From Halorussus salinus (GTDB lineage Archaea; Halobacteriota; Halobacteria; Halobacteriales; Haladaptataceae), in NCBI RefSeq assembly GCF_004765815.2, contig NZ_ML974128.1, forward strand, positions 439,077-503,076: DNA of 64,000 nucleotides, written 5' to 3'. Shown here piece after piece: positions 4,730 through 6,682 of this stretch (positions are counted from its first letter, which is position 1; each line of letters opens with the position of its first letter). Under the pieces are notes generated by a model. The model saw nothing but the letters and a program-made list of their open reading frames with translations. It made no database searches and was not told the origin of the DNA. The translations under genes and the position numbers were made by a program.

Positions 4730-4883
4730 GATACTCCGGCCGCATCTCGGACTGCGACGCGGTTCGGTTAAGTACTTTCTATGAGCCATATATATCCGTT
4801 AGCTCGAATCTGAACGCTCCGTAACTTCCTAGCGGTCGCTGCTCGCTCACCAACCTCGGAATTATATCACTATATTGGCGATA

Positions 4884-4896
4884 AATTTTATATATT
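4884..4896 (+). promoter_or_regulatory. TATA-box promoter of the Cys-rich Tat protein
   Basis: The segment aattttatatatt lies about 30-40 bases before the ATG at 4926, inside an A/T-rich block (4855-4925) that contrasts with the GC-rich surroundings. Spacing fits an archaeal TATA box giving a nearly leaderless mRNA. The block also holds several other TATAT runs, so the exact box is uncertain. Confidence 0.6.
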
Positions 4897-4925
4897 GTAT
4901 GGGCAAAATATATTCTGGAGCAAAA

Positions 4926-5588
4926 ATGACAGATAAAAACTATTCGACTCCGAGTCGAAGAGCGGTGTTGAAGAGTGCGGGCGTCGGCATGGCCGGGTTC
5001 GTCGGCGTGACGGGCACGAGCGGTGCCGCGGAAGTCGGCGTGGACGAACAGCAGGCGGCCCAACTCGACGCGCCTCACGACTCCGCGACCGACGCGGCGG
5101 CGGTCCTCGAAGACCACGGGGGCGACCTGTTGGCGGCGCTCTCGCAGGCCGACGTTCTCCCGGCCGCTACCGTCTCCGAACTCGACGCCGAGACGTTGCT
5201 CAGTTACTCGGAACACGTCGATGGTCGTGAGGGACTGTTCAGTTCGGTCACGACGCTCGCCGAGCCGACCTCGCGCGTGACGCTCCGCAAGCACGTCGGC
5301 GACCGAGTGGTCGAGCTGTTCGTCCATCCGGAAGCTGGCGATCACTACGCAGTCGTCCGCTCACAGGACTCCTCGGACGCGACCATCGTCCGCCCGCAAG
5401 ACCTCGACAGCGACGCGCAGGACGGTGACGTGGGAACGAACGCCGACTACGTCGGCTACAGTTGCGAGGTCTACATCTACAGCGACTGCTCGTACGACTT
5501 CTACCCGTGGTTCGTGGACGACTCGGGCTGTTACAAGGGTTCGCGCTCGGGGTGCTGTAGCGAGGGCTACAAGCCGCGACCCTGCTGA
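4926..5588 (+). CDS. Tat-exported protein with six-Cys C-terminal peptide (halocin-like)
   Basis: A 220-aa precursor. Residues 1-35 form a twin-arginine signal (TPSRRAVLKSAGVGMAGFVG). Residues 36-170 are an acidic, cysteine-free domain (LLAALSQADVLPAATVSELDA). The last 45 residues carry all six cysteines (C180, C188, C202, C210, C211, C220), and the protein ends on cysteine, with many Tyr/Phe/Trp. This order of Tat signal, Cys-free pro-domain and Cys-rich C-terminal peptide matches the plan of halocin C8 precursors (established for that family), but I see no sequence identity that proves homology. A strong TATA box precedes it. The start is the ATG at 4926; an upstream extension to 4875 falls in the promoter. 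Alternative: an unrelated secreted disulphide-rich protein. Confidence 0.8.
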   Translation: MTDKNYSTPSRRAVLKSAGVGMAGFVGVTGTSGAAEVGVDEQQAAQLDAPHDSATDAAAVLEDHGGDLLAALSQADVLPAATVSELDAETLLSYSEHVDGREGLFSSVTTLAEPTSRVTLRKHVGDRVVELFVHPEAGDHYAVVRSQDSSDATIVRPQDLDSDAQDGDVGTNADYVGYSCEVYIYSDCSYDFYPWFVDDSGCYKGSRSGCCSEGYKPRPC

Positions 5589-5718
5589 CGGACGAGGAGA
5601 TTCGCTCGCGTTGACGAACTCCCAGCGCGGCCGCTGGTGGTTTCGGTTCATCTTTTCGAAGCCGACGACCGAGGAGGTCGAATTCCGACGACTCTATCGA
5701 CCGGTTTCCCTAGTCACG

Positions 5719-5958
5719 CTACTCGTCCAATCGGATGTAGACGGCCGCCCGCGCTCCCACCTTCTTCTTGTGGAGGTCCCCCTGCTCTACGAGCGTTTCG
5801 AGCTTGTTGTACGCCGCGGGCCGGGAACACGCGACTTCGTCGGCGACTTCGCTGGTGGTCAACACCGGCAGGTCGGTCTCCTCGAAGACCGCCATCACGG
5901 CATCGAGCGTGACCTCCTCGACGTATTTCCCGCCCTCGTCGCGCTCCCGTTCGTCCAT
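5719..5958 (-). CDS. Winged-helix transcriptional regulator
   Basis: A 79-aa protein with a compact winged helix: LDAVMAVFEETDLPVLTTSEVADEVACSRPAAYNKLETLVEQGDLHKKKVGARAAVYIRLDE. TSEVADEVACSRPAAYNKL is the helix-turn-helix and KKVGARAAVYI the wing. Related haloarchaeal proteins start with an acidic MDERER-type leader, so I chose the ATG at 5958; the frame is open to an ATG at 6024. If the longer start were used, it would begin directly beside the palindrome at 6025. It sits convergent to the Cys-rich gene and may regulate it or itself. The ligand is unknown. Confidence 0.8.
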   Translation of the reverse strand: MDERERDEGGKYVEEVTLDAVMAVFEETDLPVLTTSEVADEVACSRPAAYNKLETLVEQGDLHKKKVGARAAVYIRLDE

Positions 5959-6024
5959 AGAGGTAGGTCGGATAGTAGTCCACTTAGTTCCATTGTCTAC
6001 GAAGTTATTGGAAAACTTTTTCAT

Positions 6025-6044
6025 CTATAACTACGTAGTTATAG
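6025..6044. promoter_or_regulatory. 20-bp perfect palindrome, candidate operator
   Basis: The sequence ctataactacgtagttatag is a perfect 10+10 inverted repeat. It lies about 67 bases upstream of the chosen start of the winged-helix gene (minus strand) and about 92 bases before the first micro-ORF on the plus strand. A/T-rich symmetric sites of this length are typical targets of dimeric winged-helix proteins. The adjacent A-rich stretch on the minus strand (aaaagttttccaataac) could serve as its promoter. That it is an operator is inference. Confidence 0.5.
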
Positions 6045-6135
6045 GTAGAAGGTCGCCGCCCCTCGGGGCGTACTCCTCGCGGAAAACGCCCGGCGTCAGA
6101 GCGCCGGACGGTGGCCTTCTGTGGAGCAGAAAGCC

Positions 6136-6237
6136 ATGTCCAAGTCAGCCACCTACCGACTTGAGTGTGACGAACAGGTCCGAAAACGTCCACGATGGGT
6201 CCCGTTCGGGGTCACTCGCTTCGGTGAGACCGCATGA
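6136..6237 (+). CDS. Micro-ORF 1 (33 aa), overlapping micro-ORF 2
   Basis: An ATG-started frame of 33 codons, MSKSATYRLECDEQVRKRPR continuing WVPFGVTRFGETA. Its stop overlaps the next ATG as ATGA, the same coupling used by true operon pairs in this genome. An imperfect hairpin (ggccttctg ... cagaaagcc) ends directly at the start codon. Third-position GC is lower than in neighbouring genes. The product is basic and has no known domain. It is too short for certainty, but the overlap and coherent composition argue for a real gene. Confidence 0.45.
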   Translation: MSKSATYRLECDEQVRKRPRWVPFGVTRFGETA

Positions 6238-6368
6238 AGTCCACTCGTCTCGTCGTCGAAGGCGTGTCTCCCGACGAGATTACCGTCGATCTCCTCGTGG
6301 CAGTCGAGGAGGCCGCACAAGACCACGACCTCGGAGTAGAAGGTATCTCGATTCAACGAAGAAGATAG
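6234..6368 (+). CDS. Micro-ORF 2 (44 aa)
   Basis: A 44-aa frame starting in the stop of micro-ORF 1. It reads MKSTRLVVEGVSPDEITVDL, then LVAVEEAAQDHDLGVEGISI, then QRRR. The alternation of hydrophobic residues, the acidic helix and the terminal Arg cluster look like a small folded domain with a beta-alpha-beta pattern rather than random translation. No family is recognised. It lies between the palindrome and tRNA-Val, in a stretch with other mobile-element-like signs. Confidence 0.5.
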   Translation: MKSTRLVVEGVSPDEITVDLLVAVEEAAQDHDLGVEGISIQRRR

Positions 6369-6448
6369 AACGCGGACGGGATACCGATTCGCCGCTCACG
6401 AAGTGGCGAGCGCACGAGACGCTCGCCGTATTGTTCGCGGCAGAATAG

Positions 6449-6534
6449 TGGGTCGGGGCGGATTGCGAACCTGAGCAAGACATTCCTGCTCGCTTCGCTG
6501 CGCGGGCCTGTGACTTGCTGGGTTCGAATCCGCC
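6449..6534. repeat. Inverted pair of tRNA-Val 3'-end fragments
   Basis: Positions 6449-6464 repeat the last 16 bases of the tRNA-Val gene exactly (tgggtcggggcggatt, also at 6608-6623). The arm then continues as gcgaacctgagcaag to 6479. Positions 6514-6534 (cttgctgggttcgaatccgcc) are nearly its reverse complement. Both arms contain a tRNA T-arm core (ggcggattcgaacc), separated by 34 bases. Neither folds into a whole tRNA. Such copies next to a tRNA usually mark old attachment sites of integrative elements; the inverted arrangement is unusual. Confidence 0.6.
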
Positions 6535-6546
6535 CGCCGAACAGTA

Positions 6547-6603
6547 TTTGCGACTCGTGGATTTGCGAGTAGACAAGCTACTCGCAGTCGAACTCGTCGC
6601 AAA
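6547..6603. repeat. Long interrupted hairpin just downstream of tRNA-Val
   Basis: The outer arms tttgcgac / gtcgcaaa and inner arms gcgagtag / ctactcgc are arranged symmetrically around the loop acaag, with a 10-base internal bulge on each side. On the minus strand it starts five bases after the tRNA-Val 3' end, so it would lie in the tRNA trailer and could affect termination or 3' processing. It may also belong to the attachment-site remnant beside it. Confidence 0.55.
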
Positions 6604-6607
6604 ATCA

Positions 6608-6682
6608 TGGGTCGGGGCGGATTCGAACCGCCGACCTGCTCCGTGTGAAGGAGCTGTCATAACCGGACTAGACTACCGACCC
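6608..6682 (-). tRNA. tRNA-Val (anticodon CAC)
   Basis: Read on the minus strand, the gene opens GGGTCGG and closes CCGACCC plus discriminator A. The anticodon stem GCTCC/GGAGC encloses loop TTCACAC, giving anticodon CAC (codon GUG, valine). The T-arm is GGCGG-TTCGAAT-CCGCC. The tRNA is 75 nt with no intron and no encoded CCA. Two tRNA-derived inverted repeats and a hairpin lie directly beyond its 3' end. Confidence 0.95.

Follow-up and report, generated by a model that had tools for sequence, protein, structure and literature searches.

To our knowledge, few archaeal antagonistic peptides are known by sequence, with halocin C8 as the best characterised example. A survey of archaeal antimicrobial peptides by Makarova et al. 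in 2019 is said to have expanded the halocin C8 family and to have listed further candidate families. Halocin C8 originates from one Tat-exported precursor that yields HalI and a 76-aa halocin (PMC11509114), and known halocins have been described as hydrophobic (PMC11509114). Haloarchaea also use extracellular serine proteases for the activation of the secreted precursors HalH4 and HFX_0892 (PMC12893001).

The gene under study was located at 4926-5588 (+) of the window, the whole stretch of 64,000 nt of Halorussus salinus contig NZ_ML974128.1 that was analysed. Its stop-free translation comprised 220 aa, and the codon-position GC of 0.66/0.48/0.82 showed a coding pattern. The protein started with a Tat signal peptide, SRRAVLKSAGVGMAGFVGVTGTSGAAE (residues ~1-35, 4926..5030, +), which was recognised from the sequence and matched Tat models weakly. 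Its motif, S10-R11-R12-A-V-L-K16, included the twin arginine that was invariant across a 24-member family alignment. The Cys-free, family-defining middle domain (residues 38-154, 5037..5387, +) was delimited with the family middle-domain HMM and was followed by the linker DLDSDAQDGDVGTNADYVGYS (residues 155-179, 5388..5462, +) and a Cys-rich C-terminal peptide with the pattern C-x7-C-x13-C-x7-CC-x8-C (residues 180-220, 5463..5588 with the stop codon, +). Cysteines were present at 180, 188, 202, 210, 211 and 220, the last residue of the protein, with none before 180, giving six in the 41 residues of the peptide. At 0.53% Cys, the average of the window genes, at least six Cys in 45 aa have a probability of 1.5e-7, and at least four Cys in the last 60 residues were found in 0 of the 35 other long window genes. 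An initial annotation had described a Tat signal, a Cys-free middle and a six-Cys end with a terminal Cys, all of which were seen in the translation. A putative TATA-like box, TTTTATATATT (4886..4896, +), was read in the AT-rich leader about 35 nt 5' of the start codon and is consistent with near-leaderless haloarchaeal transcription. The 60 nt 5' of the start codon were AT-rich in all members inspected (L002, L003, L004, L005, L008, L009, L019, L029, L091 and L092) despite GC-rich genomes; these leaders may reflect shared regulation.

By sequence, the gene is a member of a large, unnamed haloarchaeal family of putatively secreted proteins. The family plan consisted of a Tat signal, a Cys-free domain of ~115 aa and a hypervariable Cys-rich C-terminus of 40-140 aa. 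A protein search of the organism's own genome (4.75 Mb) detected paralogues of this plan, and about 40 further members were obtained from 59 relatives. Profile A2, which represented the Cys-free middle domain only, found members in 48 of the 392 Halobacteria genomes sampled, spread over 23 of 86 genera; the own genome accounted for seven of them. Matches in a phylum-wide sample were limited to the same order. The matches to A2 comprised 67 unique ORFs, and a Cys-rich tail was present in all 63 full-length members. As the tail was absent from the model, the Cys-richness of these tails is an independent observation. The ORF at 4926-5588 was matched by the middle-domain HMM with an E-value of 1.8e-31 (1e-30 in the genome search). 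A single-protein search of the genome contigs with its product gave no match, and an alignment search (A6) matched one locus, L103. None of 17 congeneric genomes contained a 1:1 orthologue of the gene, and no family member was found on the viral contigs, plasmids and phages searched. The own genome encoded an eighth protein with this plan (L005:1465-2142; C4, ~392.6 kb), comprising a Tat signal, a Cys-free domain and a 10-Cys tail. Its middle domain gave no match to the family model, and it is classed as a more distant sister family. In the member at L034:1250-2038, the Cys-rich tail was in a different reading frame, either a frameshifted pseudogene or a sequencing error, hinting at fast turnover.

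No family in Pfam (2025), NCBIfam (2026) or the PDB covered the middle domain or the whole protein, the profile searches against the PDB gave no credible match, and an enzyme family was not among the results of any of these searches. One member matched DUF7776 weakly (E 0.0012, below the cut-off), and this candidate was rejected, as genuine DUF7776 is another protein that nearly all haloarchaea possess. AlphaFold models, with a mean pLDDT of 33.6 for the whole protein and 49.3 for the middle domain modelled with one homologue, were unusable; they showed helices followed by a beta-sheet at a confidence too low to build on. Some members may have been flagged in the 2019 survey.

The initial annotation had compared the protein with halocin C8, and the plan of halocin C8 precursors, i.e., Tat signal, Cys-free domain and Cys-rich end, was indeed seen in the protein and its family. 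The stated lack of a residue-level match to halocin C8 was borne out, with 0 of 24 members, the 4926-5588 product included, matching TIGR04449, the C-terminal halocin C8 domain, or PF22862 (Hac8_like_N / HalI). As a positive control, TIGR04449 detected authentic HalC8 with 61.5 bits. Its match L037 encodes the published HalC8 sequence, with an N-terminal part that matches PF22862 (163 bits), and further genes in relatives were matched by TIGR04449. When the profile of the middle domain was compared with those of two HalI-type domain groups, the probabilities were 0.6% and 0.1%. Together, these results ruled out membership in the halocin C8 family at the sequence level, and the sequence profile ruled out identity of the middle domain with HalI. 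The proposal of a new halocin class was therefore retained in part: the plan without a halocin C8 match stood, while the gene proved to be one of a family with many paralogues instead of a lone gene. The own genome also contained three genes with true halocin C8 domains (L047, L053 and G000:C5:223635-223832). The strain therefore probably makes several halocin-type precursors, from two unrelated families.

In 54 non-redundant members, the tails contained 634 Cys in 3,863 residues and the middle domains 1 in 5,926. The tail Cys count ranged from 6 to 22 and was even in 52 of the 54 members, with a binomial p of 8e-14 that is optimistic as the members are related. The almost exclusively even counts (6, 8, 10, 12, 14, 16, 18, 20, 22) correspond to the prediction of complete disulfide pairing, from which we infer that the tail cysteines pair as disulfides. 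The cysteines were fully conserved in relatives with close orthologues; as an enzyme family match was also lacking, neither of the refuting conditions named in the initial annotation applied. Among 17 related pairs, 13 had all tail Cys in common with the other tail positions 41-95% identical, and the remaining four differed by tail insertions or deletions. Three tandem duplicates had middle domains with 60-66% identity and tails with 41, 33 and 19% identity in pairwise alignments; by a second method, the tails of the last two were 10% and 23% identical. Below ~45% middle-domain identity, non-Cys tail similarity was undetectable. The order C-C-C-CC-C of the 4926-5588 tail recurred with different spacing in the six-Cys tails of L017, L018 and L030. 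The tails were acidic, with a mean net charge of about -5 and -2 for the tail of the 4926-5588 product. Altogether, this points to disulfide-rich peptides with diversified ends, borne on a common exported domain.

The gene shares a species-specific slot (4826..6421) with a wHTH gene; the slot is bounded by a conserved DUF7511 gene on one side and tRNA-Val on the other. Congeneric genomes aligned to ~4825 and again from ~6380-6560, and in relatives the slot was read to contain a PGF-CTERM-type secreted protein, an ATP-grasp protein or a CBS-domain protein. This position next to tRNA-Val may be a hot spot of integration. In the congeneric L110, the end of the tRNA-Val gene (1036-1068) was repeated from 4362 over 33 bp with 94% identity, ~3.3 kb off, and this repeat resembles an attachment-site duplication. 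In the window (6452-6540 and 6608-6682), the tRNA-Val gene was directly adjoined by a tRNA-like remnant, which carried an inverted and perfect 15-nt copy of the tRNA-Val T-arm. Annotated window neighbours of the gene were DUF/HTH genes. The adjoining wHTH gene named in the initial annotation is real (5719..6024, -), with a weak, sub-threshold match to DUF7342/IclR-HTH, and was not conserved beside other members. Across 18 family loci, no recurrent neighbour gene was detected. The wHTH neighbour is thus local, and no immunity gene, transporter or modifying enzyme is dedicated to the family. Members occurred two or three in tandem at several loci (L089, L093-L097). At L103:5625-6494, from the MAG Halobacteriales archaeon QS_4_70_19, a putative lipoprotein with DUF7537 started 7 nt past the family member; this neighbour was not seen at other family loci.

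The product of the gene is best read, at a probability of about 0.5, as a precursor, exported by Tat, that gives rise to a peptide stabilised by disulfides; its action would be halocin C8-like, but its family is unrelated, and an antagonistic, halocin-like function is the likeliest interpretation at about the same probability. The twin-arginine signal would export the folded acidic middle domain with its C-terminal extension, and outside the cell the cysteines would pair to three disulfides in the 4926-5588 product and 3-11 in relatives. An extracellular protease would probably free the tail, and the freed peptide would antagonise related haloarchaea. The common middle domain would serve as carrier and possibly for self-protection, so that toxin and immunity domain may be combined in one protein. 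Fast diversification of the tail would lead to strains with different sets of peptides. The plan common to the 63 full-length members, the patchy, species-specific location, the even number of cysteines and their retention, and the diverged tails of tandem copies argue for the precursor, as do the published maturation of halocin C8 (PMC11509114) and the activation of secreted haloarchaeal precursors by proteolysis outside the cell, with a C-terminal HalH4 fragment as one case (PMC12893001), and the lack of a conserved neighbour in 18 loci is the expectation if one gene suffices. A search of the linkers established no processing site before the tail. The linker element [DEG]V[STG][TIV], chosen post hoc, was present in 27 of 67 members against a shuffled mean of 4.8, and a TQ/IQ motif alone before the tail was not clearly enriched (12 against 6.6 in shuffled linkers). 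Arguments against a halocin-like function are the apparent lack of homology to any proven halocin module, the acidic tails, whereas known halocins are described as hydrophobic (PMC11509114), and the different tails of seven paralogues, against which one type of middle domain would have to protect.

The main rival is that the tail stays attached as a disulfide-rich ectodomain for recognition, adhesion or signalling. Such a domain would mark cell identity, e.g., in mating or in partner choice at cell contact, and tail diversity would serve recognition instead of killing. The combination of a constant domain with hypervariable tails, together with the species-specific content, fits this almost as well as killing, and it would accommodate the linkers, in which no cleavage site was established, and the acidic, non-hydrophobic tails. 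The protein is short and ends on Cys, without a membrane anchor or a PGF-CTERM-like C-terminus, and would need another holder on the surface. This leaves recognition as a rather unlikely function, though the strongest competitor of the precursor.

Inhibitors are often built on small Cys-rich domains. The tails could accordingly belong to a secreted protease inhibitor that varies with its target and blocks the producer's own halolysins or those of its neighbours, and extracellular serine proteases do take part in haloarchaeal conflict (PMC12893001). Known inhibitor folds were unmatched by sequence, and 6-22 Cys are a range too wide for one inhibitor fold, making inhibition improbable. Equally small chances are given to metal binding, in which case the product would be a metallothionein-like or Fe-S protein that is loaded before it leaves the cytoplasm in the folded state. 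The Tat route does carry folded proteins, and CC and CxC motifs occur in some tails of very high Cys density (L012, 22 Cys). Metal binding is opposed by the even Cys number in 52 of 54 members, a low His content (1.3% of the tail), the absence of the conserved spacing that a metal site requires and the lack of a metal-handling neighbour. The absence of an orthologue of the exact gene in the genus would also suit a chance ORF or a decayed gene, but this explanation is refuted by the codon-position GC, the family match of E ~1e-31 and the improbable Cys cluster, and its probability is negligible.

For the family as a whole, the precursor reading extends tentatively, at somewhat less than even odds, to a widespread, unannotated haloarchaeal arsenal, in which an exported carrier or immunity domain delivers fast-diversifying peptides with 3-11 bonds, several per genome. 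If true, archaea would thereby have a counterpart to venom or defensin-like repertoires. The family is absent from Pfam and NCBIfam and supplies dozens of concrete candidate peptides with 3-11 predicted bonds. It also raises a clean question, namely whether one middle domain protects against many different tails. Even if non-toxic, the tails would form a hypervariable repertoire, secreted or on the cell surface, that is unusual for archaea.

In relation to described systems, the family shares with polymorphic toxins a constant N-terminal part, a hypervariable C-terminus and tandem copies with diverged ends. It differs from them in having no separate conserved or downstream immunity gene (18 loci) and no known toxin or trafficking domain, and its tail of 40-140 residues resembles a disulfide peptide, not an enzyme. 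Haloarchaeal class II lanthipeptides have a LanM-type synthetase beside the precursor and a short leader. In the family, a Tat signal and a 115-aa domain replace the short leader and no neighbour is conserved; with DUF/HTH genes as window neighbours of the 4926-5588 gene, a class II lanthipeptide was rejected. Halocin H4/CTH4 and HFX_0892 (HmHapP) of Haloferax mediterranei are protease-activated secreted precursors, and the processing proposed for the family is of that kind. Their active parts are a C-terminal fragment, CTH4, and an N-terminal alpha-helical fragment, described without mention of cysteine (PMC12893001). The closest parallel in plan is halocin C8, whose precursor ProC8 (HalI + HalC8) likewise combines Tat export, a Cys-free N-terminal domain and a Cys-rich end in haloarchaea, although neither module is related by sequence. 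Halocin-C8-domain proteins contain 8-12 Cys, mostly 10, and long hydrophobic stretches, with a mature peptide of ~70-76 residues, whereas the family tails are acidic and hypervariable, with 6-22 Cys and no common spacing. Even Cys numbers prevail in both (18 of 19 halocin-C8-domain proteins). Halocin C8 is encoded by a single self-contained gene, as would fit the family with no conserved neighbour in 18 loci, and both are present in the own genome.
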